A stretch of DNA of 64,000 bases, from positions 1 through 64,000 of the forward strand of contig NZ_JAHVAO010000003.1 in NCBI RefSeq assembly GCF_019264345.1, read 5' to 3'. Position 1 is the first letter of the stretch. Each line of letters opens with the position of its first letter. This DNA is from Marinobacter arenosus (GTDB taxonomy: Bacteria > Pseudomonadota > Gammaproteobacteria > Pseudomonadales > Oleiphilaceae). The translations under genes were made by a program, and so were the position numbers. The notes below the pieces were generated by a model, which was given only the letters and a program-made list of their open reading frames with translations, had not been told where the DNA came from and made no database searches. Positions 42,435-62,833 of the stretch are shown piece by piece.

Positions 42435-42464
42435 CATCGATAACTCCGTAGGAGGAGCAAACCG

Positions 42465-42773: not shown

Positions 42774-42909
42774 TGAACAAGTTGTAATCCCCCATCGGTG
42801 CACCTAAAACGGGGATGTTTACAATTAGGGCGTTACGCACCTACAAATCAGTTACGATAGACCTGCAATCTTAATTTCAGCGCTGTAGACCCCTAGAGAT
42901 TCTCAGTTT

Positions 42910-43437: not shown

Positions 43438-43507
43438 AAAATACGCGCCGCCTTTGTCAGTAGGTGCGGCGGAAATACCAATTTCCCTACTGCCAAGGTT
43501 ACCTACC

Positions 43508-45226: not shown

Positions 45227-46287
45227 TCCGCACCACCTACTTCCGGCAAATCGAATCGAACAACGGTTAGATTGGAACGAACGTCATGGTCTTTCAGCGG
45301 ATGCTTAAACTGACTCGTCGAGGAAGCAAAACCAATGTCCTTCGCGTTCCTGCCATTGCCGAAGACAACTTGGAAATTATCCTTGAACCACTTCGTTACT
45401 TTGCCAAAAAAGCCGGATTCACTAGTGACATCGTTTTTTCCTGGTTCGATCCAAATTGCTGTACTAAAGATTTCGTCGGTGCTGTGCCGGAAAATCTCTT
45501 CGAACTGAGGTTTGGCTTTCTTCCAATTACCACTCGAATTCAGAAAGCCGGAAAAATTGGCCAAAATAACCATTCGGGCAGCTGCGTTTTGAGAGTGGAG
45601 GGTCATTTTTCGAACCAAGTTCGTCGTCGAGAATGCATCCAAGGCATTCCATGGCAGTATGTGAGGCTCAATGGTGATAGCCTGATCTGCCAGATCTTTT
45701 TTGACACTCTGCAGCATCGAGTTCGCGTAACCTCTGGAGAACTCTGAAAGCTCTCCAGCAAGGATCACCACTGTCAGAGGGTTCCTCGGAATACGTTCTT
45801 GCTTGCGAAGCTCTGCGAGAGTTGTAAGTACCGTGAGGATGGACGCCCCTGCACCTGCGGGAATATCAGCGATAAAAACGCGATTACCGGAAAACGTTTG
45901 ATAAAAAGCGTCAGAAATATCATCTAATTTTCCTTTTGGATCGAGCATTAGCATCGATACCCTCGCTGACGAACCGGTGAATCGCCACGTCAAATGATCT
46001 TTAGATTCCTTCTCAGTCAAACCACCGATTAACTTTTTTGGCGCAGGTTGTCTGGCCTTATCGAGCAGTCCATGCTTCTTGAGGAGGCCTGTCCATGAAG
46101 AAATCAACATGGGAGGCAGGTGAATCATTGAGGATACTGAACACCAGAGCTCTTCCGGTATATCGTCGCGCCCAACAAGCCGTCTTTTACCCCGCTTGAA
46201 CAATTCCATGCGTACTGCCTTACCTATCCGTTTGTATCCATTAACATCAAGCAGAAGCAGACTGCTTGGAATGAGCGCTAATAACAT
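45223..46287 (-). CDS. Unrecognised protein coupled to the reverse transcriptase
   Basis: A protein of about 354 residues with no family I can name. Its segment DISDAFYQTFSGNRVFIADIPAGAGASILTVLTTLAELRKQ looks like an ATP- or nucleotide-binding lead-in (hydrophobic strand, PAGAGAS loop, helix), and VVILAGELSEF follows, so a P-loop-like or other alpha/beta fold is possible, but there is no GKT/GKS. The start is uncertain: ATG 46287 overlaps the restriction gene by 41 nt, while ATG 46209 has AAGG 8 nt upstream and no overlap. The 4-nt ATGA junction to the RT shows they are one functional pair. Confidence 0.75.
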   Translation of the reverse strand: MLLALIPSSLLLLDVNGYKRIGKAVRMELFKRGKRRLVGRDDIPEELWCSVSSMIHLPPMLISSWTGLLKKHGLLDKARQPAPKKLIGGLTEKESKDHLTWRFTGSSARVSMLMLDPKGKLDDISDAFYQTFSGNRVFIADIPAGAGASILTVLTTLAELRKQERIPRNPLTVVILAGELSEFSRGYANSMLQSVKKDLADQAITIEPHILPWNALDAFSTTNLVRKMTLHSQNAAARMVILANFSGFLNSSGNWKKAKPQFEEIFRHSTDEIFSTAIWIEPGKNDVTSESGFFGKVTKWFKDNFQVVFGNGRNAKDIGFASSTSQFKHPLKDHDVRSNLTVVRFDLPEVGGAE

Positions 46288-49093
46288 CCCGAACCTGGCT
46301 AGGATCGAACACGGTATCAAAGCACCAGGAACCGAACCCTCCCTGCTCGTTAACCGCCTTGATCCATGTATCCATCGCTGCACGCTTGGTCCGGTTCTGC
46401 TCTGAATCCTGGCCCTTTACTTCAAGAACCAGAGTCTGTCCGTTCTTAAGTCGAATCAGATAGTCGGGCACAAAGTTACGGGATGAGCCATTCCAGAGAT
46501 ATCGAACTTTAAAGCCGAGATGATCATTTTTAGCCCAAGCCTGAATCGACTCATCCTTCTCACAGATGTCCGCCACCGGTTTTTCCCAGGTACTGTCATA
46601 CACTACATGGCTGATCTGTGAACGCTCGGTCGGCCGACAGGGTTTGGTAGTCAGCCACGGACGCATTTGTGAGGTCGCGCCAATAGGCTGGTGCTCATCG
46701 AACAACGCCTCCAGGCGCTCAACGTTCTGCTTGCTCACGAAGCGGTTTACATGGGTAACCACGTTGTCCATATTCAGAGCAAACAACAATCTGCGACGCA
46801 CCGGGTTCTGGTGCCAGAGGCTTGGGATATCGAGTTTGTCGGACTCCAAGAATTGCTCAACAATTCGAATCAGCTGCACCGCCAGATACTGCTTGTCTCC
46901 TTCAAAACCGTCACTACTACTCAGGAACAGTTTTCGTGCGGCCCGGAAGATCAGGTGCTGTAAGCGGAAGTCTTCTACAGCCTTCTCAAGGTCGATCTGA
47001 GAGACCTGCGCAAGGTTTGGGATACCAGTCAGCGCAGGGGCAATCTCAGCGTTGAGCGGTGTTTGAGCGGGATCCAGCGTCAGAGGCTCAACCGCGTTCC
47101 AATCAATCTTTAGTTCAGGTTTCAGAACGGTCTGAACGCGGTCAATATTGGGCCAGCGTATTTCGAAGTGGTTTCTGCCTGGCTCCACTTCAACACGCAC
47201 ACTCGGTTTCGGCGGAGGAGGTGTTTCGCCACCCTCACCGACCTCCTGAAATATCGAAAGCGGCACACCGAACACATTCACGTACTCCGGAATAAACTTA
47301 CCGCTCTCGTCCATGTCGTGAGCGACACGCCGAAGGCCTCGACCAATCACCTGCTCACATAAAAGCTGGCTACTAAACGCTCTCAGGCCCATGATGTGAG
47401 TTACGTTGGCTGCATCCCAACCTTCGGACAGCATGGCCACTGAAATCACGTTCTCAAGGTTCTGGCCAGGCTTGCCACGCTTCCCTACCGTGTCAACCAA
47501 CGCCCGTAGCTGGTCCTCTTGTTTTTCCGCCAGCAGGGCCTCTTTCTTGTCTGCGGGCAAACCGGATGCCTCTATAATTTCCTCAAGCCGAGCAACGTAA
47601 TCTTTATCCTTCGTGATGCTCTCGCCTCGCTCTGCTTTTTCCAGAACCTTTGAGTCCACGCGTAAGGCTGCCTTTGGGTTCTGGGTGCCAGAAATCAGGC
47701 AATCACCGCTGTTAAAGAAGTGCTCAATACGAGAAGCGGTTTCCGTCCTGTTGCAAACAGTGAGCAGTACCGGTGGAATAGTGTGCCCGTTTTCCTCCCA
47801 GCTCTTCGCAGTCTCCCTCCAATCATAGGCCAGAATGGCATAGGCTTTCTGGACCAGATCTGGAAGCGGATCGGTGGGCTGAGCCTTCCTCGCCAGGTCC
47901 TGTTTTACGGCCGCGTCGCGATACAGATGGTAGAGCTTGCTGGCATAGGTCTTCGCATCAGGCAAGGCATCATCCCTGACTACGATTCGAGGCGTTTTGA
48001 CCAACCCCGCCTCAATCGCATCGTTCAACCCAAAGTCCGAGATGATCCACTCGAAGAGCCCTTTCTCAGTATTCTTTTTCCCGGTCGGCGAAAAAGGCGT
48101 CGCCGTCACGTCGAAGCAGCGACGAATACGGCGGGTTTTATGGATACGGTCCAGCCCCTCGATCCATCGAGTCGCTTCCTCCAGATCGATCCCCATTTCC
48201 TCCGCTTCTTTCTTACTGACCTTCACTTCAGCTTTCTGGCGGTAGGCGTGATGGGCTTCATCATTGATGACCAGAATGTCTTTGAAGGAGGCCAGCTTGC
48301 CCAATACCCGGCGGGTGAAAGCTTCATCGCTTTCCTTGCCTTTTTTCACCACTGAGCGAGTTTGTTCCTTCAGGGGCATCAGGCTATGCCAGTTCTCAAT
48401 CACCAACGCTACCTGGTTCAGCTTTTGGCGCATTGCTTCGTTAGGGCACAACACAAACTCGTCGTAGACGTTGCTTTCGTTGCCTGGGTTCAGAACCTGA
48501 AGTCGACTTTTAACCGTCAGACCCGGTGCCACGACGAAAATGGCTTTGGAGTAACGCTTGTCTTTCGGATAGGTGACGGCATTGAGGGTTTGCCAGGTAA
48601 TAATCAACGCCATCAAGGAAGTCTTGCCAGACCCGGTGGCCATCTTGTTGCAGATACGCTCCCACGGCCCACCATCGCCTTGCAGGAATATACCTTGACG
48701 ATATTCCTCCGGAGCCTCCAACCACCAGATCAAGGACTCGATGGCTTCGAGCTGACAATAGTAAAACGGGTATGGTCTCGGACCACCGTTCCATCGTTTC
48801 GAATCGGGATCCCACTCACCTCTAGAATACCAGTGGTTGAGCAACTCCCGGGATACGCTAGTTACACCAGGCCAACCGGCATCGCGCCAGTCATCTACTC
48901 GCTGGCGGATTCGGTTGACCGTTTCCAGTTCCTCTACCCGTCTTGTGTTGTTACGGGGGTCATAAAGCTCGTAGGCGGCAGGCCTGCGACCCTCAGCTAC
49001 CCCAGCAACCCGACCATTATCGTCCTGAGACCAGTATTGGTTGGGTTTGTCATAAGGTGAATTGATCACCAGGGAATTCGGTTTATCAGCCAT
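46247..49093 (-). CDS. Type III-like restriction endonuclease subunit (DEAD/DEAH helicase-nuclease)
   Basis: A 948-residue Res-type protein. Superfamily 2 helicase motifs: Walker A ATGSGKT (152-158), DEAH (278-281), DVTATPFSPTGK, and the motif VI-like QVIGRGLRR. The C-terminus has a PD-(D/E)xK nuclease signature (PDYLIRL, D877, then LEVKG with E891 and K893). In type III systems Res translocates or diffuses after Mod recognition and cuts DNA. It begins 9 nt after the Mod gene stop, so mod-res are one unit. Both motor and nuclease residues are intact. Confidence 0.9.
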   Translation of the reverse strand: MADKPNSLVINSPYDKPNQYWSQDDNGRVAGVAEGRRPAAYELYDPRNNTRRVEELETVNRIRQRVDDWRDAGWPGVTSVSRELLNHWYSRGEWDPDSKRWNGGPRPYPFYYCQLEAIESLIWWLEAPEEYRQGIFLQGDGGPWERICNKMATGSGKTSLMALIITWQTLNAVTYPKDKRYSKAIFVVAPGLTVKSRLQVLNPGNESNVYDEFVLCPNEAMRQKLNQVALVIENWHSLMPLKEQTRSVVKKGKESDEAFTRRVLGKLASFKDILVINDEAHHAYRQKAEVKVSKKEAEEMGIDLEEATRWIEGLDRIHKTRRIRRCFDVTATPFSPTGKKNTEKGLFEWIISDFGLNDAIEAGLVKTPRIVVRDDALPDAKTYASKLYHLYRDAAVKQDLARKAQPTDPLPDLVQKAYAILAYDWRETAKSWEENGHTIPPVLLTVCNRTETASRIEHFFNSGDCLISGTQNPKAALRVDSKVLEKAERGESITKDKDYVARLEEIIEASGLPADKKEALLAEKQEDQLRALVDTVGKRGKPGQNLENVISVAMLSEGWDAANVTHIMGLRAFSSQLLCEQVIGRGLRRVAHDMDESGKFIPEYVNVFGVPLSIFQEVGEGGETPPPPKPSVRVEVEPGRNHFEIRWPNIDRVQTVLKPELKIDWNAVEPLTLDPAQTPLNAEIAPALTGIPNLAQVSQIDLEKAVEDFRLQHLIFRAARKLFLSSSDGFEGDKQYLAVQLIRIVEQFLESDKLDIPSLWHQNPVRRRLLFALNMDNVVTHVNRFVSKQNVERLEALFDEHQPIGATSQMRPWLTTKPCRPTERSQISHVVYDSTWEKPVADICEKDESIQAWAKNDHLGFKVRYLWNGSSRNFVPDYLIRLKNGQTLVLEVKGQDSEQNRTKRAAMDTWIKAVNEQGGFGSWCFDTVFDPSQVRDVISAHSKQSASA

Positions 49094-49102
49094 GCCCCCT
49101 CC

Positions 49103-52100
49103 TCAATCCAGCCTGATGACTTTCAGTGACTCAATACCGCGATCGTCGACAATCTTGACTGCGATGCAGCGATTCTCACCTGGCTCGAAAGGGATGGACT
49201 TGGTGCCATGAAATTTGTCCAGCAAGTCTTCATTGAGCTCTGCACGAATATCTTTCTTGAGCTTGTACCAACCATCCTTCTTGCTAGCCATGGGGAAGAA
49301 AACCTGACGGGCGTAGAGTGAACGGTTGTCGTAATCCGTATCAAGCTGCCACATGGCGATATTCTTCTTGCCGCCTGATTTCAGCTCACCGGTTTTGGTG
49401 TCGAAATAGTCAAAGCCATGAACCTCGACCTGCAATTTACCACCCTTAAGTTCATGGACTTCAATATCTGGCTGCCCCATGAGCCAGAAAGACTGGTTGC
49501 TCGCCCGCCCCTTTTTAAGGTCGTCGGTGAGCAGGTCCGTGTTCATCTGAACTTTAAGCGCCTGGATACCTTTGATGTTATCTATATCTTTCGCTGCTTC
49601 AGGATCAAAATTAAAAGCACAGAAGATTAATATCTTTGGAAGTGGAAAAAGGTCGCCTGCATCTCGCATAGCAATTTCCACTTGCCGCTGCTCAAGAGCC
49701 GCGTGCTCAGGACCAAAGCTAACCGCAACGCGCTCTCCACTGTCGGCCACCGTACCAATCGCGTGAATGTAGTGAGCCCCCGGTAGTGTTTCCAAATCCT
49801 GGAGTTTAATTTGTTGCCCACCTTTACCCCGAATGCCTGAGTTGAGTAACTCTTCTCGCCACTGCGATTGACGCGACGTCGCTCCAGATCTTGCCAATGC
49901 AACATCCGCTTCGACAGGCTGATCGCCTTCGTCTAATCCCAGTACGGTCGCAAACGGGACCGCTTCAACAGTAAAGGGTCCGGTAATTCGCACTTTGTCT
50001 TTACTTACCTCAGGACGGTCATAGAGTACCTCTTGGCCAGAATGAGCAGCTATGCTCGCATCGATTCTTTCTTTCATGGCAGAGCGGCTTGCATGAAATT
50101 CTTCAAAAGCTTTTCTCGCACTCTCGGGCCAGTTTTCTGGCCATACTGAGGGCACTTCCCATTCCAAAAGTGCGTTTGAGTAGGCGACTTCCCCGCTTGG
50201 CATGGTCTCTTGCGAACAATCTTTATCCAGAAACGTCAATACTTGGCCGGATCTCGCTCCTTCTCTGACCTCAAAAGAAGTTCCAGCATTGCTCAACTTC
50301 TGATTTAAATTTACAAGCGCTCGGTCCACATTTGGATGCATGCTAGCAGCGATTTCGTCTATTTCTGAGTTGTTAGCAATTGCTTTCAGTCCAATGTGCG
50401 GAACGGTCTTGTATATGAACCCCCCACTCAGCCCCTCTTGGGGATACTTTAGTTCGTAGAAATCAAAGCTTGCCGTCATCAGCCGCTGTTTCGCCAGAGC
50501 AATCGCAACTCTAGACGTATCGCACGTCAGCCAACGCCTACCCCATTTTTCCGCCGCATATGCGGTTGTTCCAGAGCCACAGGTTGGGTCGAAAACAAGG
50601 TCCCCTGGGTCCGTTGTCATTAACAAACAACGCTCAACCGCTTTCACAGAGGTTTCGACTACATATCTTTTATCGGAAGCAAAGCCTGCAACACCAGTAT
50701 CGGTCCAACTGTTATTTATGGGATAAACTGGGAAGTCTTCAAAGTTTCTTACGTAATAAATAGATGTCTTTGTAGATTCGATACGGGATGCAATGCTAAG
50801 CCGGTTGAACCCGTTTTCGTGCGTCTTCCAGTATCCTTTTCCTGGGGTATATACGTCCCCATTAAATTTGACAGGGAAGCTTCCAGGCGGCCTTTGACTT
50901 GTAAAATTATCGATCCGATATATGCATGCTCCAGCCGGGAGAACCTTAGGATCAAACTTTTCATTCTTTGTTAACGGACGCTTTCTTCCGTCTGGAAGCC
51001 TAACTTTAGAGTATGCAGTTCCACCAGCACCGCCCAAAACCTTTTCAGAGTATAACGAGTTAAATTTTATTCTAGACCGATCTTTGGAGTACCAAACAAT
51101 GTAGTCGGCAACATTAGCTAATAAATCACTAGTTGCACTAGATGTTTTTGCAAAAGAAATCACTGATATGAAATTATCATCGCCAAACACCTCATCCATT
51201 AATTCACGTACATGATGTAAATTTTCGTCCGAGATCTGAACGAAGATACTTCCAGAGTCAGAAAGTAAATCTTTTGCAAGTAGCAACCGATCCCTCAAGT
51301 ATGTTAAGTAGGAATGGATACCAAGCTCCCAAGTATCACGGAATGCCTTAATCATTTCAGGTTCTTGGGTTAAGTCTTCATCCTTCTTGTCCTTAACATC
51401 CCTTTTATTTACGAAAGGTTGGAAGTTAGACCCGTACTTGATTCCATATGGAGGATCGATAAATATCGTCTGCACCTGCCCTGCCATACCCTCCTTCTGC
51501 AGCAGGGAGTTCATAACCAGCAACGAATCCCCCGCAATCATGCGGTTGGCCCAGTCCCTCTCATGCTTGTAGAAGTCGATGGCATCCCGGAGCGGCAGAT
51601 TCTCAAACGGAGCATGAAACAGGTCAGGCTGCAAAGCGGGAGAGGACTTTCCCTTTGCGTCTTTAATTCGTTTCTGGACAGCAGCCAGTATTGTTGCCGG
51701 ATCAATTCGCTCATGAACATGAAGCGAGACGGTATCCACTTCGAAACTGGTGCGCTCCGCTTTACCAGTCCAATTCAGATAGGGAGCCTGCATACGCTTA
51801 AGCTCAGAAAGATCCTCTCGCTCCCGTTCCAGGAATTCCTTATCAGCCACCCTTTTGCGAAGATTCGCTACTACCTCACGAATAGCAGCTTCGTTATCAG
51901 CCGCCAGCGCATGGTCCAGCCACGTCAACAGATCATCTTTCGCCTGTTTTGCTTCGACTTCTCGGGCGTGTAGCGCGTCCTCAATCAGATCTTCGACTTG
52001 CGACCTGCTTGAATCGAATTGCAGCTCTGGAGAGAGGTGCGGGTCATACTGCCAGGTCGTTTTTTGCTCCTCACCGTCAGAATGGGTATCCACCATGCCC

Positions 52101-52513
52101 ACATGCGGGTTGTTCTTCCGCTTCTCGTCATATCGGTACGACAAAACCTGACTGTGCTCTCCCTTTTTCTTTGCCGGCTGGCGAGGCGATTTCGGAGAGG
52201 CTGGCTTCTGACTGGAATAGACGAGATCTTCCTGTGAAGGCGCTTGCTGAGCTTGCAACTCAAAACCATCAGGTATCGCCTGCTCGCCTGCGACAGGCTG
52301 GTTTAGGAAGGTTGCACCACCGCGTCCACGCCCTTTCCCAATAGCCCCCTCATCGAGGAGCTGGTTTCGAGCCGCGTCAAAATCCTCGTCGCTGATGGCA
52401 AGTTGATGGTCGTCGCGAATCTGGTCTTTGAGGCTCATGTTGCCGACGGTTGATCCATCCTTGGGTAGCAAGGAAAGCAACAGGGATTTGATCTGCTCGA
52501 TATTGGTGCTCAT
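49103..52513 (-). CDS. Type III-like site-specific DNA adenine methyltransferase (Mod)
   Basis: A 1136-residue N6-adenine methyltransferase. The catalytic motif IV DPPYGIKYG is at about 353-361, and the SAM motif I DPTCGSGTTAYAAEKWGRRW lies later at about 642, the beta-class order used by type III Mod proteins. The segment between them (370-600) should contain the target recognition region. The protein is longer than a typical Mod (about 600-700), with extra N-terminal (winged-helix-like, residues 1-70) and C-terminal regions. It is followed 9 nt later by Res. The 233-nt gap on its 5' side has no gene and may hold an internal promoter. Confidence 0.9.
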   Translation of the reverse strand: MSTNIEQIKSLLLSLLPKDGSTVGNMSLKDQIRDDHQLAISDEDFDAARNQLLDEGAIGKGRGRGGATFLNQPVAGEQAIPDGFELQAQQAPSQEDLVYSSQKPASPKSPRQPAKKKGEHSQVLSYRYDEKRKNNPHVGMVDTHSDGEEQKTTWQYDPHLSPELQFDSSRSQVEDLIEDALHAREVEAKQAKDDLLTWLDHALAADNEAAIREVVANLRKRVADKEFLEREREDLSELKRMQAPYLNWTGKAERTSFEVDTVSLHVHERIDPATILAAVQKRIKDAKGKSSPALQPDLFHAPFENLPLRDAIDFYKHERDWANRMIAGDSLLVMNSLLQKEGMAGQVQTIFIDPPYGIKYGSNFQPFVNKRDVKDKKDEDLTQEPEMIKAFRDTWELGIHSYLTYLRDRLLLAKDLLSDSGSIFVQISDENLHHVRELMDEVFGDDNFISVISFAKTSSATSDLLANVADYIVWYSKDRSRIKFNSLYSEKVLGGAGGTAYSKVRLPDGRKRPLTKNEKFDPKVLPAGACIYRIDNFTSQRPPGSFPVKFNGDVYTPGKGYWKTHENGFNRLSIASRIESTKTSIYYVRNFEDFPVYPINNSWTDTGVAGFASDKRYVVETSVKAVERCLLMTTDPGDLVFDPTCGSGTTAYAAEKWGRRWLTCDTSRVAIALAKQRLMTASFDFYELKYPQEGLSGGFIYKTVPHIGLKAIANNSEIDEIAASMHPNVDRALVNLNQKLSNAGTSFEVREGARSGQVLTFLDKDCSQETMPSGEVAYSNALLEWEVPSVWPENWPESARKAFEEFHASRSAMKERIDASIAAHSGQEVLYDRPEVSKDKVRITGPFTVEAVPFATVLGLDEGDQPVEADVALARSGATSRQSQWREELLNSGIRGKGGQQIKLQDLETLPGAHYIHAIGTVADSGERVAVSFGPEHAALEQRQVEIAMRDAGDLFPLPKILIFCAFNFDPEAAKDIDNIKGIQALKVQMNTDLLTDDLKKGRASNQSFWLMGQPDIEVHELKGGKLQVEVHGFDYFDTKTGELKSGGKKNIAMWQLDTDYDNRSLYARQVFFPMASKKDGWYKLKKDIRAELNEDLLDKFHGTKSIPFEPGENRCIAVKIVDDRGIESLKVIRLD

Positions 52514-52746
52514 GGAATACTCGCTGCGAAAACTTGGTTCCGTCCTCCCCGTCGTTGCGACAGGGCTGGCAAGTGGCCGAGCTGATGGGCTCAGGCTTCG
52601 ACCACGCTCTTGAATGTTGTCAGCTGGTAAAAGTAGCAGAAAGAGACATAAACATCAGTTGTTTATCTCATCTACCCAGAGCGCTGGAGACAGCATGCGG
52701 ATCGATATTCAGTACGCTCAAAGTTCTGTCAGCTATTACCTACATA

Positions 52747-54483
52747 CTACGAACTTAACCCATCCTCCGAAGTGCGAGGTCCCATGGAGATCTCAGAGTC
52801 TATGGATGTGTTCCGGAAAAGCTCTTTGACAAGGTTTGCTAGACGCGGAGATGAGGAGTCATTCGCTATAGACCGGCAAGCTTTTACAAAATGCTCCGTA
52901 GCGGTACCGAAGTGGGGATCGTAAGCCGACCGATTAATACGCATTTTGATCATCTGTCGCATGAATTTGCCAAGGATTCGCAAGTCTTTCATATCGCGTA
53001 TAGCAGCCTCAAAGTCCTGAACCGATGCTCTACTGAGAGCGACTTCTTCCAACGTTCCCCAACCACTATGGTCAACAATGTGTATACAGGCATCGACTAG
53101 ATTGGTGTCATTCTGAGCCGCTGACTCTGCCTTATCGAGCTCTGCTTGGATTCTGTGATCTATTGGATTTCCAAATGGATTTTCGAAAGAGATCTGTAGT
53201 CGACCCTCCCGATAAGCTTTAATCCAAGCATCGATGATCAAGGTGGCTTTTGCTGCGCCCCCAGTCATCCGGGAAAGCTCTGCACTCAACTGGCTCACAA
53301 TGAAAGGGTCAAGAAGGCCTGCAATTTTTGGGAAGCCAGCCGCTTCCTCCACCAACTGGTTTTCGTCGGCTCGATGGTCCCAAAAAGATCGAAAAAGGAA
53401 ATCCTGGATCGTTTTCCTTGCTTCCATGGCCTCAGTCTCAGAGGCATAACGGCTAATGATGGCTTCTATTTTGACTGGCTCGAATAGACCCGACTCCAAA
53501 AACTCGACCAATCGCTCCTCAAACTCGTCGCATCCATGGATGCCCAGTTCTTGCATAAGCATCCTCCAGCCATCCTCCCTTTTTTCCTGAACAGTAGGCT
53601 CATCATCATTGTCCCTTCCAAAGTTGGCCCAGTCAGGGTTACCAATATTCAGCGCGAATTTGAAATCCGGACCGTCCTCCAAACCCCGATGGTAGATAGA
53701 TGAAAATAAGACGATAGATGGCACCACCCGATCCAGAATAGGCTTGTCCAAATCCCTACCTGCCAGAATCTGATTAGTCGCCTTGATGACCCGCGTGACG
53801 ATGCGAATGTTGGTCAACCCGCATATCACAGACGCTCGCTGAATCGCTTCTGCGTACTTGGATGGCTTAAGGGCAATTGCTATCGAGAAGGCTTCCTCAG
53901 GCGTGGTGGATAGCTTTATTTCGTGATCAATGATCTTTTCCCTGAAGGTTGCCCACAGTTCAGCCTGGTCCTCCTTGGTTGAAAGCTGATCATCATTAAG
54001 AACGAGGATGAACCGCGAACCATGCTGCTTTGAATATTCATCGATGAAACCAAGGACCTCATTGATACCAAGCGTCTCATATTTGCGTTCGATGTCATCA
54101 ATAACGATCAGCTTATTGCGTAATACAGCAGGCGCCATTAACAACAAATTCAAATTATTTATGGCAGCCAGTGCTTTGTAATGCTTGGAGGCAGCCTCTA
54201 CACCCGAATTGAACAGATTCTTTAACCCGTCGAACACCCCACCGTGAGACTCCACTCCGGGTACCGATGCCTCAATAAGTTTGCGCTTCAGCTGATCAAT
54301 GCCCGATAAGCCAAAGAGTGAGACGTAAAGGGCATTCCTTACCTTATCATCACGAGCCTCAGCCTGGACCTCAGTCCAGAGATGGGTTTTACCTGTTCCC
54401 CATTTGCCCGACAGCGCAATCACCTTGTTATCTGATTCGCTGAGCGATTGGATCATTTGTTCCTTTGCTTTCTTTAACGACAC
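52747..54483 (-). CDS. KAP-like P-loop NTPase
   Basis: A 578-residue AAA+/STAND-like ATPase: Walker A GKWGTGKT (26-33), Walker B LIVIDDIERK (125-134), then a sensor-like FILVLNDD and a long helical C-terminus. The IDDIER form and layout resemble KAP family NTPases and other defence-associated P-loop proteins; members are often membrane-linked but I see no clear transmembrane pair here. The start is GTG 54483 with GGAG 5 nt upstream. It lies between the SNF2 helicase and the methyltransferase, with gaps of about 200 and 233 nt on either side. Confidence 0.8.
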   Translation of the reverse strand: MSLKKAKEQMIQSLSESDNKVIALSGKWGTGKTHLWTEVQAEARDDKVRNALYVSLFGLSGIDQLKRKLIEASVPGVESHGGVFDGLKNLFNSGVEAASKHYKALAAINNLNLLLMAPAVLRNKLIVIDDIERKYETLGINEVLGFIDEYSKQHGSRFILVLNDDQLSTKEDQAELWATFREKIIDHEIKLSTTPEEAFSIAIALKPSKYAEAIQRASVICGLTNIRIVTRVIKATNQILAGRDLDKPILDRVVPSIVLFSSIYHRGLEDGPDFKFALNIGNPDWANFGRDNDDEPTVQEKREDGWRMLMQELGIHGCDEFEERLVEFLESGLFEPVKIEAIISRYASETEAMEARKTIQDFLFRSFWDHRADENQLVEEAAGFPKIAGLLDPFIVSQLSAELSRMTGGAAKATLIIDAWIKAYREGRLQISFENPFGNPIDHRIQAELDKAESAAQNDTNLVDACIHIVDHSGWGTLEEVALSRASVQDFEAAIRDMKDLRILGKFMRQMIKMRINRSAYDPHFGTATEHFVKACRSIANDSSSPRLANLVKELFRNTSIDSEISMGPRTSEDGLSS

Positions 54484-54681
54484 GCTGTCTCCAACGATAG
54501 ATTGACGCCTATTACGTCCATTTCGGACCGTTAACTTGTGAACAATATCTAGCCAACGTCGATGTGTATGTCAGCTTCTGCAATTAACCTCAAATCATCT
54601 AGCTATTCATCTTATCTAGCTCACCAAAGCGGACGGACGAGAGTCCCAGTTGGTTCTGTGTCTGCGTTTCAGAGAGGAGCT

Positions 54682-57600
54682 TCAAAACTGATCTTCCTCG
54701 CAAACCAGGAACTCCAACCGGTCACTCTCCACCGCAAGCACATGAGCGCAGTAGACGAATTCCCGCCAATGCAGGCTATCAACCGGATGAACGCAGCGGC
54801 CAACAATCTCCCGGTGGTCATTCAGCATGAACTCAACCACGTCGGTAGATCGATTCCGCTCCCAGGTTAGCTCTACAATTTTCTCAACAGGCATTGCGCT
54901 GACGGCGTTTGAAGGCACTGCCGGGCTGATGAAAATACACTGCCCGTCGCACTCCGATAGGAGGACGGTCTGGGAGCGCTGCAATTCGCCCTCTTTGAAC
55001 CAAAACCGGAGTCCGATCGTTTTCCCGGAATCGACCACATCGACCTTCAGGGCCTGTTGACCGACTTGAATTTCTTGGTCCTGCCGAAGTCGTTCGAGAT
55101 GCTGAGAAACGACAGAGCCTGGCGGTCGGTATTGCTTCGGGTCGTGTCTTTCATGAAACCGAGCAAGAAGCGCCGTCATATCCCTCTCGACCGTTACGAT
55201 CTCATCCCCCACCAGCATTTCGGCATCGTAGGCCAATCGCCAAACATTCCTGGCAGTTTGATAAGCAAAGGTTCTATGGAGCGTGGTCCAGGAGTGTTGG
55301 TGCATCAACATGGCCAATTCACTGTGAGAGCCTATCTGAACTTGCGTTCCACGACAGTCCTGATGATCAACCACAACTCGGGCAAGGATTTCTCCAGATG
55401 CCCTGGCTGTCGTCAGACGAACTTCCGCAATATCGGATACCTGTTCGACCAAGTCGCTTACCTTCAGGTTAACTCTCAACGGCCAGCGAATGCGTTCACT
55501 AACGCCGAGCGCGGTGGCGATCAGTTGCTTCGCTTGAGTGACGTTCGCCTGCACTTGTTTCTGCGTTTCCTTAATCTGCTGCTTGAGAAAACTCAGGTGT
55601 TCCAGATCCGATCTCGGATCTGCTGGATCAAAAGGACTTTCCAGGAAATCTCTTATCTGGGGCTCTATTCGGGTGCGATCGGCGATTTCGGATTCGGCGA
55701 TTTCCTCCTTGTCTGAAGCGACGGTGCTTCCAATCTCATGGAGCGAGGCCATGTAACGATTGATGCTTTCCGAGAGTCGACGAATCTGAACGCGCTCAAT
55801 GCTCTCTTTCACGTGGGGGAAACTGACCTGTATTAAGTCATCCTCTTCCGGATCACTGAAGCCTCCACGAGTGAGCCGACGCTGTGCCAACGAGCCAACA
55901 CGATCAACCCGACCGTTCTTCTGTTCGATGCTTACTGGCGAGCCTGATACGCCATAGTGGACAACGCTATCGCAGAAGAGGTGCAGATCTTCACCTTCCT
56001 GAAACACATTCGTGCTCACAAGTACCAATGGATACCCTGGCATACGAAACTTGCGGGCCTGGGCTGAACGCTGTCCCGGCGCATTGGTCTCGCCCGTCGC
56101 ACCAATGATCGGGGCGATCGGGTTAAGCTGATTACTCAGGTAGCGGCGATATTCGTTGGTACCCAGGTCGAAAATGCCAGGAAGGTTGGCTTTCAGTATC
56201 GCCGGCAGCTCATCCGCCAGCCCTTTTAGCTCACGATAGGTGGAAAACCCTTGAACCTGGGATTGTCGAGTCAGCTCCGTGACGAAATCTTTAATCCAGT
56301 CAGTGAGGACGCGGCTACTGAGATCTCCCTCTCCCTGCCTCAGGCGCGACACGTACAGATCAATCATGCCGTGGCCCGTGCGTAGCACTGTCGATACAAT
56401 TGCTGTGTGTATATCAACGGTTCTCAGCAGCGCTTTTATGTCATCACGGTTAGTGCAAACAGGCGTTTCAGTGAGCCGACGAAACAGCTCTCCTATACTT
56501 GGGAGGATTTGCCCCTTCAGCTCATCACTGACTTCCAGTTCAGAAAACAATGTTGGTAAGCAGAGCTGCTCTCGAACGTCCTGGGGGCTTAGTGGAACAC
56601 CCTCGCCCTGCGCGTTCTGGTGACTGAGAAAAGCTTGTAGATGATCTCTAAGTGGCGCAAAAGCTCTGTGTCCGAGCTGATTGACCCAGGCGTCCAGAAA
56701 GAACAATTGCGACAGCCTGAATTTCCGAAGGTACTCTTGTGCCTGAACCTTTCCAAGATCGGCAAGGGACGCTTCAGTATCAGCGGCTAAGCATTGCTCG
56801 ATAACTTGGCGCAGGTCCACACCGCTGAAAAAACACATGAGCTGCGCCCAATTCACCTCTAAAAGAGGGCTAGCCAGGCGCGTGGGTTGGGAAAGGCTTT
56901 GCCTCACCTGATCCGGCGTTAAAAGATCCCCCCAGTTCTTCCGTTTTTGAGGCTTTGGCGCGTCGCCTCGGAAGAACCAGTTGAAAAAGTTGTCGTTCTT
57001 GGGTGGCTGCCGGAGTTCGGCCTCTCCAGTGCTGTCCTCCTCCGCGAGGCCTTCATCTATGCGCTCGTCCCTGAATCGGCTGATTTCACCGTATTCGCTG
57101 ATCACGCCTTGCACAGAACTCAGTGCTTTCGGGCGATCTTGCAGGCGGAAATTCAGGTAATTGATCAGCCAATCGTCATAGCATTCATCGAGTTTCTGCT
57201 TGAGTTCTTTGACGCTTTTCACCCGACGCACGAATACAAGCTGTTTGCGATTCTCCTGAACAACCGCATTGGCCAACTGCTTTGCAACGGTGTCCATTTT
57301 AGGGTGTGGCAGTGAGCGCCCGAGGTTTGCATTTACATAACTGTCGACAATAGCACCAACCACGTTCCGGTCCTGCGCATCGCGTCCTCTATCATCGGGA
57401 TCTTCACTATCGAACTCCACCCGGGGTGAACGAGTGGTTTCACCATAGCTCTCGAAGGATGCAAGCATTCCCATTTGGAAGGACGGAGAGCCATGCTTGT
57501 GCCCCAATGCATCGCCAACCTTCTTCTGAACCAGGGCGGTGACCAGCTTCTGTTCATCCGTTTCCAGTTCAATCGCTGCCTTGTGCCCATCGCGCCACTC

Positions 57601-58575
57601 CGCACGGTACATATTACGGGTGTATTCCCTGTCTCCGATTTTCAACCGGTTGAGGCGGCGGACCATAAACCGGGCGATCTCTGCTTTGTCCGTTACAGAC
57701 TTGGCGTTCCTCAGAAGGCCGTCCTTTCCTACCAGAGCAAGCTGGTTCCGTAGTTGTTCCAGGTTACGATCGTAAGGCGTGGCGGAGAGCAGCAAGGCAT
57801 TGCGTACGCGACGCTGAAAAGGTCTGACCTTAGCGTTTTGGTTTTGATAGAAACCCAAGACCTGAGAAAGTACTCGGTTTCGGTCGCTACTATCCGCGTC
57901 ATGCTTAAAGTTATGCGCTTCATCGATCACTACGAGGTCAAACGTGGGCAATAGGTAGTTCAATGCTCTTGCGAACTCATCTTTTACCCCTTGATGCGTC
58001 GGGGGTCCACCAGGTACTGCAAACGCGGGAACCAATCCTTTAAGCTTTTCACGCTGTTTCTTCCAGCTTTCGATCGCTCTCTGCCCGTCATCTCCATCTG
58101 CTTTTTGAAGCCCAAAACTGAAACTCCCATTGCGAACGAAAAAGTCAGCATAGAAGCCCGAGGCTGCTGTGCGGATGAGATCTTCCAGGCTACCGCATTT
58201 GGCCACAGGGGCAGCCGGCTTGCCCTCCGGAGTACGCACTCGGTAGCTAGCAGTACATACGTTTCTGTCGATAAAGCTGGCTTGTTCCCGCAGCCATTTG
58301 TCCTGAACATTGGCACTTGGGCAGATATAGAGAACCCGCAGAGCCGGGTTGAAATACCGCATCAGCGAAACAACTCCGAGCGCTATGTAGGTTTTTCCCA
58401 TTCCGACTTCATCGGCGAGATAACCTAACCCGATATTCTCGGTGTTGATCATGTTGTAGAGAGCAACCGCGCCACGGAGCTGGACCTCGCCGAGCGATTT
58501 GAGCTCATCCCTACCACCACTGAAATCAAGAATATGGCGTGCAGAGTCCAGGTCGAGGATAGGGTAAGGTTTCAT
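54682..58575 (-). CDS. SNF2-type DEAH helicase
   Basis: A 1297-residue SNF2/HepA-like ATPase: Walker A DEVGMGKT (55-62), DEAH (218-221), LLLSATPYD motif III, a helicase C-terminal part with STNVFQEGEDL and motif VI EQKNGRVDRVGS. A long insertion separates the two RecA lobes, as in DISARM DrmD and related defence helicases. ATG 58575 forms an ATGA overlap with the PLD gene stop, so the two are translationally coupled. It lacks any nuclease motif I can see; DNA cleavage would come from the PLD partner (inference). Confidence 0.9.
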   Translation of the reverse strand: MKPYPILDLDSARHILDFSGGRDELKSLGEVQLRGAVALYNMINTENIGLGYLADEVGMGKTYIALGVVSLMRYFNPALRVLYICPSANVQDKWLREQASFIDRNVCTASYRVRTPEGKPAAPVAKCGSLEDLIRTAASGFYADFFVRNGSFSFGLQKADGDDGQRAIESWKKQREKLKGLVPAFAVPGGPPTHQGVKDEFARALNYLLPTFDLVVIDEAHNFKHDADSSDRNRVLSQVLGFYQNQNAKVRPFQRRVRNALLLSATPYDRNLEQLRNQLALVGKDGLLRNAKSVTDKAEIARFMVRRLNRLKIGDREYTRNMYRAEWRDGHKAAIELETDEQKLVTALVQKKVGDALGHKHGSPSFQMGMLASFESYGETTRSPRVEFDSEDPDDRGRDAQDRNVVGAIVDSYVNANLGRSLPHPKMDTVAKQLANAVVQENRKQLVFVRRVKSVKELKQKLDECYDDWLINYLNFRLQDRPKALSSVQGVISEYGEISRFRDERIDEGLAEEDSTGEAELRQPPKNDNFFNWFFRGDAPKPQKRKNWGDLLTPDQVRQSLSQPTRLASPLLEVNWAQLMCFFSGVDLRQVIEQCLAADTEASLADLGKVQAQEYLRKFRLSQLFFLDAWVNQLGHRAFAPLRDHLQAFLSHQNAQGEGVPLSPQDVREQLCLPTLFSELEVSDELKGQILPSIGELFRRLTETPVCTNRDDIKALLRTVDIHTAIVSTVLRTGHGMIDLYVSRLRQGEGDLSSRVLTDWIKDFVTELTRQSQVQGFSTYRELKGLADELPAILKANLPGIFDLGTNEYRRYLSNQLNPIAPIIGATGETNAPGQRSAQARKFRMPGYPLVLVSTNVFQEGEDLHLFCDSVVHYGVSGSPVSIEQKNGRVDRVGSLAQRRLTRGGFSDPEEDDLIQVSFPHVKESIERVQIRRLSESINRYMASLHEIGSTVASDKEEIAESEIADRTRIEPQIRDFLESPFDPADPRSDLEHLSFLKQQIKETQKQVQANVTQAKQLIATALGVSERIRWPLRVNLKVSDLVEQVSDIAEVRLTTARASGEILARVVVDHQDCRGTQVQIGSHSELAMLMHQHSWTTLHRTFAYQTARNVWRLAYDAEMLVGDEIVTVERDMTALLARFHERHDPKQYRPPGSVVSQHLERLRQDQEIQVGQQALKVDVVDSGKTIGLRFWFKEGELQRSQTVLLSECDGQCIFISPAVPSNAVSAMPVEKIVELTWERNRSTDVVEFMLNDHREIVGRCVHPVDSLHWREFVYCAHVLAVESDRLEFLVCEEDQF

Positions 58576-60608
58576 GCGCTGGCCTCCGTTCCTTCGACCC
58601 GGTACTGCTCCAGGAATTGCGCCTCAAACCAATCGAAGAACCGGTCTCTATCAGCCTCACGCTCACTGGACAGTTTGATCAATTTGCTCTCGCGTATCTG
58701 TTGAAGAAGCGTTTCGATAAACTCCAACTGCTCTGTGACATAGGGGCGACCTGCAAATTCGGCTGATCGATAGATTTCCTTGGCACTGAGTAATAAAAGA
58801 TACGCACTGACCGGATGGAGCGGCTGATCACTCTCCTCAGCGGGTTCGAGTACAGCCGCAGCTCGGCCTACTAATGTTGGTAGGCTATCCACGCCAGTGC
58901 CGGTGAGGTAGTAATCCTGCTTCTTAGTTGTGGATTGCTCATTGCTGAGGTCACGTCGCAACATGCGAAATGCGTGGAACAATTCGGCATACTCGGAGAA
59001 GAATTCATTCTCCAGAGGTGCCTCCTCGATCAGGCTGGTTTCCCCTCGCTCGCCGAGTTCAAAAAGCCGTTTGACCCTTGCGTCGGTCAGCAGCAGCTGA
59101 CGGCGCTCCGGAGACATCCCGGCATAAATCGCCAGGATCTGTTGAGGAGACAGTGTGGCAAGCTCAGGTTGCGGTTTGTGCGACCAGTGCGTTTGCTGAA
59201 GTAAAACACGGTGCGGGGCGATTAATTCATCGGAATCACAAACTCGTCCAGACACGAGGATCAGCGAGCCGTTGGCTAGCGCCTTCTCCAAAGCTTGAGT
59301 ATCGCCAGTGTAGTCGCTCAAACAGTTGCCAAGAGGCCAGCCCTTCACTGCCGTGCCATCTACCCCGTCAGGGCCGATTAAATCAATTTCGATCGGGCTT
59401 TCAGAGTCCACTCGTCCGCTCAGGGTTTTGGTCAGCCAATCAAACGTGAGGGAGATCTGAGGCATGCTGCCCCGAGCTTCGTGGTCCAATTCGCCAGGTG
59501 CCAAGTCAAGCGATCTTTGGCTAACTTCCGGCAGGTCTTCGGAGATAGTTTTCAACAACGACTCCGGATCTGTAGCTACTAGAAAACCGGCTTCGACATT
59601 CTCATTGAGCGCTTTGTACGTGAAATTCACTGACCCAACAAAGGTAAGAGCCCGATTAGCGCCAATGAAATTGAAAATCTTAGCGTGCAGTTCTCGATGA
59701 GGCTCTTTTCCTACTCCCAATGGGTCCGATGTTGTTTTCACCCAATCAGCCCAGGAGACGTTCTCCAAACTATCAATGTGAGTTAAATAATCGAGGTTAC
59801 AGAGCGCTTCTTGCTTATCATCGCGCGGCAACAATAGGCGCATATTACCGACGCCCAGATTCTGAAATGCCTCATGCAGATTACTCTTAGAGTCGTCGGC
59901 GAAAAATGGCGAGATAATCTCCAGTTCAACGGGCTTTTTAAGCTGGCTGGTCTCTGCCGATAGAAAATCCAGAAACCGCGTTGTACTGGACAATCCGAAG
60001 TAGTGGACTGGTGCTGCTGCAGGATCTGCTACGCACTTACCCAAAAATCTCTGAATTTCAAAAACAGCGCCGTTCTTCGACTGGACTATCCGCTTCTTTT
60101 GCAGGTAGTCCAGATCCCGTTTCAGTACCCGCAGAAACTCCCCGTCACCACCGCGTAGGCCAATTTCCTCCCAGTGCTGGCATTCAATGTTATCCCACCA
60201 ACCAGCCTTCGTGAGGTTATTGGAGCCGGCGGATATCAGTAAGGAGTCACTTTCCCCAACGCCGTTACCTACAAGCAGAAACGATAGCTTCGGGTGGAAA
60301 GCACGATTTCCTTCAGAAACACCGTGACAGCCGTATTCCATTCCAGGTGAGCTTTCACCCTGAATACGGAAAATGTTCTGATCGTAAAAGACATCAATCG
60401 GCAGTTCGGCTTCCCTAAGGGATTCTCGCACCTGGAACTGCTTCACCCGCTCATCAATCGAGAACGAGCTGTTTTCTGGTAATAGAAGAGGAACAACTTC
60501 CAGCTCAAAAAATGCGGGATCGAAGGTGTAGGTGGTAAAGACAGCGGCTTTAACCGGGCGCCCTCCCAGACGTTCTTCAAGGTATTGGGATATCTGCGCA
60601 TTATCCAT
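58572..60608 (-). CDS. Phospholipase D-like (HKD) nuclease
   Basis: A 678-residue PLD-superfamily protein with two HKD-like half motifs: HPK (105-107) with GSNNLT (128-133), and HAK (308-310) with GSVNFT (325-330). Both sites keep the catalytic histidine and lysine, so a single chain could form one active site. Family members in defence loci (for example DrmC) are presumed nucleases. The start is ATG 60608 with GGAGG 6 nt upstream; the open frame extends to 60677. It overlaps the upstream unknown gene by 8 nt and the SNF2 gene by 4 nt, which makes a coupled three-gene block. Confidence 0.87.
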   Translation of the reverse strand: MDNAQISQYLEERLGGRPVKAAVFTTYTFDPAFFELEVVPLLLPENSSFSIDERVKQFQVRESLREAELPIDVFYDQNIFRIQGESSPGMEYGCHGVSEGNRAFHPKLSFLLVGNGVGESDSLLISAGSNNLTKAGWWDNIECQHWEEIGLRGGDGEFLRVLKRDLDYLQKKRIVQSKNGAVFEIQRFLGKCVADPAAAPVHYFGLSSTTRFLDFLSAETSQLKKPVELEIISPFFADDSKSNLHEAFQNLGVGNMRLLLPRDDKQEALCNLDYLTHIDSLENVSWADWVKTTSDPLGVGKEPHRELHAKIFNFIGANRALTFVGSVNFTYKALNENVEAGFLVATDPESLLKTISEDLPEVSQRSLDLAPGELDHEARGSMPQISLTFDWLTKTLSGRVDSESPIEIDLIGPDGVDGTAVKGWPLGNCLSDYTGDTQALEKALANGSLILVSGRVCDSDELIAPHRVLLQQTHWSHKPQPELATLSPQQILAIYAGMSPERRQLLLTDARVKRLFELGERGETSLIEEAPLENEFFSEYAELFHAFRMLRRDLSNEQSTTKKQDYYLTGTGVDSLPTLVGRAAAVLEPAEESDQPLHPVSAYLLLLSAKEIYRSAEFAGRPYVTEQLEFIETLLQQIRESKLIKLSSEREADRDRFFDWFEAQFLEQYRVEGTEASA

Positions 60609-61821
60609 TACGCTCCTCCAGATTCGCTTTGGCAATGCGAAAATAGGAGCCCAGAAAGTAATCGTAATCCCAGTCATCCAGGAGAGCTTCCCTGGACCGA
60701 AGAACCGCCGTTTCAGACTTTACTTTCACATTTAGCGTGTCGCCGTCACAGGTTACCCATGGAGCACCACCCCTCGCTTTCATCACGTCCGCATTTAACT
60801 TGGCGACGGCCTTCACCGCTCCCCAATGGTTGCCAGTTCTAAGATTATCGTTAATTTCGCAAAGCGCATCCCTGCGTGTCATCCCTTGGGGCAGTGTCTC
60901 TGGCAGGTGATCATACTGATACGCTTGTCTGTCGAGCTGTTCTACGACTGAAGAAACCGGTCGATGGTCCTGTGTGAGCAGGTAATAGAACACGTTGTTG
61001 GCAGCGACCAGTACACGCTCTACTCGCTGGATTTCATCAAGAGCCTTCTGCAGCTCAGGTGACGCAACGCTTTGGACCTCATTTATCTTCCCGGCAAACT
61101 CACCGGTTAGCCTGCCAGCCCTCACAAGTTTCTCGGTCGCGGATAAAAGGTCTACTTGAACCGAGGCATTCTGATTCTGGCGACCGCGAAGCAGTATATG
61201 AGTGAGCCTTTGTCGGACAACGTCCTTATGAGTGGCCTGCCAAAATTCGGGAGCCAAGCGCTCACATTCATCTCTTGAGAGATGTCCATCGACTTTGAAC
61301 AGCTGAAAGAATTCATTGGCGTTCAGATCCCTCGCGATTGTTTCAGCAAGCGTCTTCCCTTCAGCTGTAAGCTTCCGATCGCTCCCTTCTGCAAGCCCTG
61401 AATCTTTCAAGGCCGAACTGTACAGGCCCCACAATCCATAGCTTGCCTGATTGCTCAGAATCTGCGCTTTCAAGCTAATAGCTAACGACTCCGCCTGAGC
61501 AGTCATATTTTTGTGGACGCGGGTAATACCCATGATTTCTTTGCTACCGGCCTGGTGCCGGAGGTAGGCGGCAAGCTGCTCGTAGCGGAGGAACGTCTCC
61601 CTAATGAGCCGCTCGCGACTGTCTTTGTCGGCATTCCCATGGATCTGGTGTGCCCAATAAAAGCCGAGCAGCGCAACGGTGAAGTTTTCGACGGAACTGG
61701 TGATGGTGGTCAGGTTGCCAACCACCTTTCGGCCGAAATGGGTCCATACCAGCTCGAAACCCAGTGGGTCACGTGAACCTTTGGGTTTGGCCCGGTCATC
61801 AAGGAGTGAAAGAAAAGGCAT
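60601..61821 (-). CDS. Unrecognised operon partner of the PLD/SNF2 genes
   Basis: A 406-residue soluble, mainly helical protein with no family I can name (MPFLSLLDDRAKPKGSRDPL at the N-terminus). It has no catalytic motif, signal peptide or membrane segment. It overlaps the PLD gene by 8 nt, so the products probably act together. It may be the targeting or assembly subunit of the helicase-nuclease; this is inference from coupling. It is preceded by a broken metallopeptidase-like gene. Confidence 0.8.
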   Translation of the reverse strand: MPFLSLLDDRAKPKGSRDPLGFELVWTHFGRKVVGNLTTITSSVENFTVALLGFYWAHQIHGNADKDSRERLIRETFLRYEQLAAYLRHQAGSKEIMGITRVHKNMTAQAESLAISLKAQILSNQASYGLWGLYSSALKDSGLAEGSDRKLTAEGKTLAETIARDLNANEFFQLFKVDGHLSRDECERLAPEFWQATHKDVVRQRLTHILLRGRQNQNASVQVDLLSATEKLVRAGRLTGEFAGKINEVQSVASPELQKALDEIQRVERVLVAANNVFYYLLTQDHRPVSSVVEQLDRQAYQYDHLPETLPQGMTRRDALCEINDNLRTGNHWGAVKAVAKLNADVMKARGGAPWVTCDGDTLNVKVKSETAVLRSREALLDDWDYDYFLGSYFRIAKANLEERNG

Positions 61822-61867
61822 AACGTTTCAGATCCATCTGCTTATTATTCTGGGACCCCGTTTTTCA

Positions 61868-62354
61868 TCAGAGGGTCGCGACTACTTTCTTCTCCACGTC
61901 GAAGGGGGCTACGCCCTTTTCGAACGTTTTCTGCAGACCATACGCCATCCCCTCAAGCGGTGCCTGGTCGCCGTAGCCAAACCTTTGTATTTCTTCCATA
62001 TAGCGCTGAATAAAGTTTCGCGCGCCGAGCGTTCGCCATTGATTGGATGACGTACACAAGTTCATGAAAGTGGATGCCTACATCTCTGGCTGCATCCGGA
62101 ACAAGGTAGTAAGTGTCTTTGTAGGTGATACCACCGAGCTGGTCCTGAATATCAATAAAGTCACCCAGCCCTGCTTCTCTGAGCTCCGGCATTTTCGGCA
62201 TGGGGAGAGCCTTTACGATCACGAAATAGGATGAGCGGAGAAGCTCCGGGCTATAGAAACCGTCAAACTGATGCTGCAAAACTGTGCAGGATTGGCGATA
62301 CGGCTTGTGCGCTTCGTTTACCTCATCAATCCATGATTTCACGAGCTCAATCAT
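61868..62354 (-). pseudogene. Frameshifted HExxH metallopeptidase-like protein
   Basis: Two overlapping frames together describe one protein of about 160 residues. The N-terminal frame (starting 62354) runs through LGGITYKDTYYLVPDAAR and FHELVYVIQ; the second frame continues with WRTLGARNFIQRYMEEIQRFGYG and PLEGMAYGLQKTF. The join sits at a tandem CAATCAAT (62038-62045); removing one CAAT restores HELVYVIQWRTLG. The zinc motif is HELVY, where HELVH would be expected (codon TAC at 62052-62054 instead of CAC). A third-ligand glutamate lies in PLEGMA. It is the first gene of the minus-strand run, 46 nt before the 406-residue gene. Confidence 0.8.
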
Positions 62355-62614
62355 GTGCCCTCCTTAAGCGCTGAACCATTCATTTCATTCAGAAACTGCA
62401 CCAAAATCTGCCGAAAAATAGTTAGCCTGCAAACGCTGGTCGACCCTTCAATACTGCTTGAACTAATGAAGTTTTCCAATAGACCCAGATAATCCCTTTG
62501 CCGGTGCGAACCAGGAGAGTCAGGTTTGATGCGTGTTCCTGACGGCCGTGCTTTACTATCTCGTGTTGACTGACAAAAAAGACGGCAGGCACTTTAGTCA
62601 GGTGGAAAATTCCG

Positions 62615-62833
62615 ATGACAAACCAGAAGACTGAGATTGAAAATTTGCTTGGCCAAGTGAAATCCGCTGCGCTGGAGCTTTTTGAGGGAGACCAGCAGAT
62701 GGCTGAGAGTTGGCTTTCGAGTCCACTGCCGATTATCGGTAACGAAACTCCTTACCACTACATGGACTCTCCTGAACGGGCGAGGCAACTACTCGCCATC
62801 ATCAATCGATTCGAGCACGGTGTTTGGACGTAG
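62615..62833 (+). CDS. MbcA/ParS/Xre-type toxin-binding domain protein (DUF2384), orphan
   Basis: A 72-residue protein consisting almost only of the C-terminal DUF2384 domain of Xre/MbcA/ParS antitoxins: ALELFEGDQQMAESWLSSPLP, then SPERARQLLAIINRFEHGVW. The usual N-terminal HTH is missing, and no RES-domain toxin follows, so it is an orphan or a remnant. ATG 62615 has AGGTGG upstream. It is transcribed away from the minus-strand run, sharing the 260-nt divergent region. Confidence 0.8.
   Translation: MTNQKTEIENLLGQVKSAALELFEGDQQMAESWLSSPLPIIGNETPYHYMDSPERARQLLAIINRFEHGVWT

Follow-up and report, generated by a model that had tools for sequence, protein, structure and literature searches.

Type III restriction-modification (R-M) systems consist of Mod, which marks the DNA, and Res, which cuts unmarked DNA with ATP; they act on paired asymmetric sites. 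Class 1 DISARM combines an SNF2 helicase and a PLD protein with an adenine methylase, DrmA and DrmB. Further candidates are held in PADLOC as PDC-M and PDC-S models, which we take to stem from a 2024 preprint and to denote candidates with several genes and with one gene, respectively. Azaca (ZacA, ZacB, ZacC) contains a PLD-like protein and a helicase, and the available text of a 2026 review (PMC12926258) gives its mechanism as unknown. For BREX-related (BR) systems of type 2, the accessible part of another paper (PMC12839542) describes an HKD nuclease and a Swi2/Snf2 effector, along with a DUF499 ATPase and a DUF1156 methylase. Genes resembling parts of such systems lie in a row within the first 64,000 nucleotides (nt) of contig 3 (NZ_JAHVAO010000003.1) of a 4.11-Mb Marinobacter genome, the stretch that was analysed here and is called the window below.

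With a probability of roughly 80%, the locus is a mobile multi-module defence island in which cassettes of mostly known kinds are stacked, and not one composite system. The first cassette would comprise an HExxH gene and the triad of a subunit A, a PLD-type nuclease and an SNF2-type ATPase (A-PLD-SNF2, a divergent PDC-M27), the second a lone KAP NTPase, the third a type III-like Mod-Res pair and the fourth a protein termed Y with a reverse transcriptase (RT) of group UG36. All of them would be carried by one family of integrative elements at tRNA-Arg(CCT), the cargo of which varies between strains. The features are listed with window positions and strand (ORF, open reading frame; aa, amino acids; att, attachment site).

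40936..41012, plus strand: tRNA-Arg(CCT), the integration site, with the left att repeat in its final 16 bases (40997-41012)
41013..64000, no strand: body of the integrative element within the window, which continues to contig position 70013
42910..43437, plus strand: GIY-YIG-like ORF of 175 aa (PF01541 with 19.9 bits, under the cut-off of 22.6)
43508..45226, minus strand: predicted reverse transcriptase, group UG36 (RT_UG36 with 657 bits over residues 3-570 of 572; YVDD at 237)
45223..46209, minus strand: Y, partner of the UG36 RT, with a predicted S-adenosylmethionine-dependent methyltransferase-like fold (ORF listed to 46383)
46247..49093, minus strand: Res of the BPTD_3080 family, 948 aa (NF046055 with 1155.5 bits, cut-off 800)
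49103..52513, minus strand: Mod, type III-like, 1136 aa (profile matches and motifs)
52747..54483, minus strand: KAP-family NTPase, 578 aa (Pfam KAP_NTPase; GKWGTGKT at 26, VIDDIE at 127)
54682..58575, minus strand: triad subunit C, SNF2-type ATPase, 1297 aa (GMGKT at 58, DEAHN at 218, SATP at 264, GRVDR at 888)
58572..60677, minus strand: triad subunit B, PLD-type nuclease, 701 aa (two HxK motifs, H128/K130 and H331/K333)
60601..61821, minus strand: triad subunit A (PDC-M27A, the former 'unknown'), 406 aa (PADLOC model match)
61953..62354, minus strand: frameshifted HExxH gene, fragment of 133 aa, metallopeptidase-like by motif (one ORF in relatives)
62615..62833, plus strand: antitoxin-like ORF of 72 aa, divergent from the HExxH gene (Pfam match of a relative at locus L013)

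Cassette borders became apparent in nucleotide alignments with genus relatives. Two genomes (G015 and G067) have the block 54682-62383 in common with the window, at 89%; homology with both stops at the stop codon of SNF2 (54682) and a little upstream of the HExxH gene (62383). The HExxH gene belongs to this cassette together with the triad. A second block begins at the Res stop (46246/46247) and reaches 52690 or 52549, upstream of the Mod gene; pieces of it occur in three genomes (G018, G093 and G056) that all lack a close triad. In G069, homology is unbroken from inside Mod via Res and the Y-RT pair as far as the GIY-YIG-like gene, and such a GIY-YIG-like ORF was located near Mod-Res in five other genomes of the genus (G094, G069, G018, G093 and G056). 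The Res of the window is closest to that of G069 (99%), a genome without a close triad.

The cargo that follows SNF2 differs from island to island. In the window it consists of KAP, Mod-Res and Y-RT. Marinobacter sp. S6332 (G094, locus L004) has Mod-Res and a NERD-UvrD helicase there, G015 a divergent Res-Mod pair together with a 569-aa ORF and another SNF2 helicase, and G067 a type I R-M system accompanied by a PDC-S23 gene. Since the borders lie at gene ends, the cargo differs and the closest Res comes from a genome without a close triad, the gene order that the original prediction had called unusual reads as stacked cargo. In the slot of G015 (L098 12076-19868 and L099 77-2728), the second SNF2 helicase is BrxHI/HmaA/DrmD-like, and the genes there possibly make up another multi-gene system.

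The element itself spans 29 kb (41013-70013). A 16-bp right att copy of the tRNA end was found beyond the window at contig 69998-70013, adjoined by a tyrosine integrase at contig 68463-69818. The GC content was 0.595 before tRNA-Arg(CCT), 0.506 within the element and 0.577 past contig position 70013. When 124 Marinobacter genomes were searched (E <= 1e-60), an intact close triad was present in four, namely that of the window, G094, G015 and G067, and a remnant in a fifth; not included in this count is Marinobacter litoralis, whose PDC-M27 relative (L082) is a distant one with 26% identity. The remnant (G114:C2:571910-572245) matched only the last 112 residues of SNF2 and probably derives from a lost triad. 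All four islands reside in the same tRNA-Arg(CCT) with a 16-bp att at both ends and have an integrase in common (85-86% identity). Matches to the left chromosomal flank were obtained for all three other islands and to the right one for G067 and G094; in the 13 kb past the island of G015, the right flank had no match. A 188-aa gene past the right end was rejected as chromosomal marker, as it is accessory (4/124 genomes), and other flank genes were taken. Next to the triad cassette, a recombinase-like gene pair (contig 3, 63699-65167) was observed in 4/4 islands (L098, L100, L101); it matches Integrase_1 and, below threshold, Phage_int_SAM_2, and is additional to the main integrase.

All seven ORFs named in the original prediction are present in the ORF listing at their coordinates on the minus strand, and Pfam confirmed the domains assigned to them (PLDc_2, Helicase_C/ResIII/SNF2-rel_dom, KAP_NTPase, N6_N4_Mtase and ResIII). 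The coupling it had seen in the three triad genes is real, with A and PLD overlapping by 77 nt and PLD and SNF2 by 4 nt; Mod and Res are 9 nt apart. It was also right that all genes lie on one strand, yet gaps of 198 nt (SNF2-KAP) and 233 nt (KAP-Mod) intervene. The HExxH gene had been called broken, which was substantiated by relatives whose match spreads over two frames of the window ORF (residues 1-104 and 106-133), the gene being a single ORF in L004 (180 aa) and L013 (164 aa), with TTG starts as listed. No Pfam match was obtained for these relatives' ORFs, and as a general component the gene is not apparent, with tblastn matches at E 1e-3 in 2/80 of the triad loci described below, both from Marinobacter. 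For the divergent ORF at 62615-62833, the L013 relative matches the antitoxin domain Xre_MbcA_ParS_C (Pfam was run on that relative only). The start of Y near 46209 was read from the sequence and from relatives. In the Rfam scan the tRNA was the sole match. A scan for promoters and terminators gave fewer sites than shuffled sequences, and its result was left unused.

The triad is a self-contained module. In a scan with one genome per species, performed with an SNF2 alignment, the best 80 of 329 relatives were taken as locus set. All three genes (each >100 bits) were present in 71 of the 80 loci, and every one of these 71 has them on one strand in the same order, the median gaps being -3 and -7 nt. 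Eight of the nine incomplete loci are cut by a contig end on the upstream side. The ninth, L053 from an Oleiphilus metagenome-assembled genome, holds an SNF2 fragment at a contig end (8209-8985), and A and PLD are absent from the roughly 8.2 kb upstream; it either breaks the triad rule or reflects binning or a remnant. According to record titles, the loci come from Proteobacteria, Acidobacteria, Planctomycetes, Chlorobi, Actinobacteria, Firmicutes, Spirochaetes and others. The three subunits diverged together, as their distances correlate over 72 taxa (Mantel r 0.935-0.953 vs <=0.127 in 500 permutations). Active-site motifs are intact: both HxK motifs of PLD are invariant in 71/71 aligned relatives and the Walker A lysine of SNF2 is kept in 0.99 of 74 relatives.

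In 34/80 loci (e.g. L022 13377-13847, L024 13551-13979, L026 13470-13844), the C-terminal part of SNF2 is encoded separately, by an ORF of 90-240 aa; a few of these cases may be frameshifts. When flanking ORFs of the 80 loci were clustered, only this split-off tail recurred widely, in a cluster of 31 loci that includes other SNF2-type helicases; the next clusters covered <=6 loci. One separate tail protein gave weak YbjN and CesT matches, both under the cut-off. The triad was located on two plasmids, of Vibrio nigripulchritudo (L187) and Rhodoferax antarcticus (L188). The SNF2 search of plasmids returned 28 records, of which none covered 80% of the query. A scan of viral sequences for SNF2 gave 74 loci, and a triad was seen in two of the four examined (L111, L112, L114, L116); these two come close to the score of L030 and are perhaps not independent of that locus. 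A complete triad is also found in a 'Bacteriophage sp.' record that carries no annotation and derives from samples of human faeces (L199 11938-18936, MT835507.1).

The original prediction had left two readings side by side, a single modification-dependent system or more than one system in a row, and it is the latter that held. In a composite system Mod would protect the host, Res and the triad would restrict unmodified DNA, and KAP would act as regulator. The common strand speaks for this, and so does the island of G094, in which both blocks are adjacent without KAP; the triad and Mod-Res do therefore occur together elsewhere. On one and the same side of the triad, a Mod-Res-type pair lies in three of the four Marinobacter islands and type I R-M in the fourth, and relatives of triad and KAP may share a 251173-base contig of an uncultured Marinobacter. 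Within the locus set, however, the triad has both Mod- and Res-like genes in its flanks in only 2/80 loci (L004, and L030 on the opposite strand). This absence is mostly real, because 54 of the 71 full triads had >=5 kb on both sides. Conversely, six genus genomes have such a Res but no close triad, Mod-Res pairs stand without a triad in the three annotated plasmid regions examined, and cassette borders coincide with gene ends. One composite system is thus considered very improbable.

Some observations nevertheless weigh against mere stacking. A close triad and a Res of the BPTD_3080 type are found together more often than expected by chance in the 124 genomes (p = 0.001): Res is present in three of the four triad genomes, once at 34% identity, vs 9/124 overall, and in G015 the divergent Res-Mod pair (30-38% identity) is about 5 kb from the triad. 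Some R-M system follows SNF2 in 4/4 islands, and the triad may benefit functionally from such a neighbour. If two cassettes were in contact in this way, any R-M neighbour could supply the self-marking that the triad reads, and the differing kinds of R-M after SNF2 in all four Marinobacter close-triad islands fit this idea. Outside Marinobacter, however, a methylase-like gene, recognised by profile or motif IV, was found in the flanks of only 10/77 loci, plus two doubtful motif matches, with scattered position and strand (flank lengths vary and there was no matched control set). Such contact is rated as unlikely. In the preferred reading of stacked cassettes, co-carriage of Mod-Res and triad is explained by one element family with exchangeable cargo in a shared slot.

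Concerning its mode of action, A, PLD and SNF2 most likely form one complex. A would recognise DNA or a feature of the invading DNA, the SNF2 ATPase would serve as motor that moves along or remodels DNA, and the PLD subunit with its two HKD motifs would cut, presumably with DNA as its target. The structure model of A is confident and mostly helical and weakly resembles winged-helix DNA-recognition modules; Foldseek with this model gave nothing at E < 0.001, and a new fold is not claimed. By sequence, no solved relative of the SNF2 family was obtained at E 0.001. A conserved linked methylase was considered for the triad and rejected, as none was seen outside Marinobacter. Since the triad has no methylase of its own, foreign DNA would be told apart by something besides linked methylation. 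The literature searched holds no description of the triad mechanism.

Mod and Res form, as judged from their sequences, a type III-like system with a Res of the BPTD_3080 family. Mod carries motif IV (DPPYG at 353) before motif I (DPTCGSGT at 642), and the adjacent Res has the motifs of superfamily 2 (SF2) helicases (GSGKT at 154, DEAHH at 278, GRGLRR at 584) and a PD-ExK-like nuclease end (PDYL at 876 ... EVKG at 891). Mod was described as oversized by the original prediction; its length of 1136 aa is correct, but it is not unusual, since partners of the same Res family on two plasmids have about 1045 and 1071 aa. In comparison to six genus relatives, 50-residue blocks of Mod are on average 85-95% identical over residues 1-400 and 80-98% over 851-1136, with a hypervariable middle of 30-43% over 451-600 and 43-51% over 701-800. 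The Res proteins of these relatives are 90-99% identical to that of the window, and Res is broken in G071. Variability of Mod under a nearly fixed Res fits an exchange of target recognition and looks like specificity switching. Going by gene pair, motifs and variable region, Mod would mark its own motif and Res would cut unmarked DNA using ATP. Among the nine genus genomes with a BPTD_3080-type Res, five of the six without a close triad were looked at, and Mod was beside Res in each. The related pairs without triad in the three plasmid regions, all annotated, include one of Thermus with a DUF3800 gene between Mod and Res.

The Y-RT pair adjoins Res and lies partly outside the range of the original prediction (46247..62354). 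The RT model match spans nearly the whole protein, which places the RT among the UG36 defence-associated reverse transcriptases (DRT). Y, for which a methyltransferase fold is predicted, had a mitochondrial ribosome assembly factor as best structural match. It stands beside the RT also in G069, G071, G123 and the distant G697 (and G000). Across the order, Y was found in 1/293 genomes, its own; it was not confirmed in any viral contig, and the RT had no plasmid match at E 1e-30. Tentatively, and with the odds against it, the triad with a YbjN/CesT-like fourth part, which is fused in the window and separate in many other loci, may be a methylase-free defence that cuts DNA, is widespread and differs from both DISARM and Azaca; Y-UG36 may be a two-gene defence with the methyltransferase-fold protein and the reverse transcriptase acting together.

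KAP was present in 1/124 genus genomes (E <= 1e-60), the window's own. Elsewhere the family comprises 707 proteins, and the 120 matches listed are 61-92% identical. Of the PDC-S49 models, the best spans only residues 22-202 of the 578 of the window's KAP. The plasmid search gave two records, one with an annotated neighbourhood. An SNF2 relative (P0014) and a KAP relative (P0215), both of uncultured Marinobacter, are each on a contig of 251173 bases and may be neighbours.

Interest in the island centres on how the triad works and on the Y-RT pair. Beyond them, comparing islands at one integration site can take apart defence genes that appear linked, and modules with different histories offer natural cassettes for one-by-one testing. 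PDC-M27, BPTD_3080 and RT_UG36 were not found in the literature searched, which mostly leaves out subscription papers and preprints and is no proof of novelty; the term UG36 returned unrelated papers only.

The Mod-Res pair resembles type III R-M in its adjacent genes, in motif IV preceding motif I, in the SF2 helicase motifs and in the PD-ExK-like end, and its Mod is similar to solved ones (6k0w; EcoP15I, 4zcf). It differs in the length of Mod, which is nearly double that of EcoP15I (644 aa). The RT is like a UG36 DRT over almost its entire length; different is the pairing with the methyltransferase-fold protein Y, which weakly matches the PADLOC model RT_UG35 (16.7 bits).

With class 1 DISARM, the window has an SNF2 helicase, a PLD protein and a nearby adenine methylase in common, but this methylase comes from another cassette. 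The original prediction had found no DrmA or DrmB, and rightly so. The MZB domain of DrmB (PF09369, which we take to be the former DUF1998) had no match in the genome, in a search in which controls rang in 8/14, and for the DrmA helicase only a partial match of 56.7 bits inside the SNF2 protein was obtained among ten proteins scanned. A divergent class 1 DISARM that has lost both could draw on the weak scores of SNF2 with the DrmD model (73.5 bits) and of PLD with DrmC (25.3 bits). Relative to the NCBIfam cut-offs, however, SNF2 reached 89.9 of 610 bits for DrmD and PLD 30.8 of 133 for DrmC, the DrmD score is below the 242 bits of SNF2 with PDC-M27C, and the triad is a complete unit in 71/80 loci. 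With DrmA and DrmB missing and DrmC and DrmD below threshold, DISARM was rejected as scarcely credible.

As in type 2 of the BR systems, at least in the part of the description available, an HKD nuclease is paired with Swi2/Snf2; different from the components named there, DUF499 and DUF1156 had no Pfam match at E 0.1 in ten island proteins. Azaca is in part similar in its PLD-like protein and helicase, with partial profile matches of the window to ZacB (76.5 bits) and ZacC (104 bits), and B scores higher with ZacB than with PDC-M27B. It differs in its first subunit, as 0/66 A subunits matched the ZacA model at E 0.1; a genome search for ZacA gave none either, although controls were silent in that search.

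Judged by model scores and not by PADLOC's own system thresholds, the triad is a divergent member of the PADLOC candidate PDC-M27 and not DISARM, with 52.6 bits for A, 44.8 for B and 242.3 for C. The three genes are adjacent on one strand in the order A-B-C in the window and in 71/71 full loci, and 66/66 A subunits scanned match PDC-M27A. Compared with PDC-M27 itself, the window triad has the same three genes in identical order. It departs from it in the scores, since a Pseudomonas relative (L074) reaches 627 bits for A and 845 for B, and in its SNF2 protein, to which the tail domain is fused.
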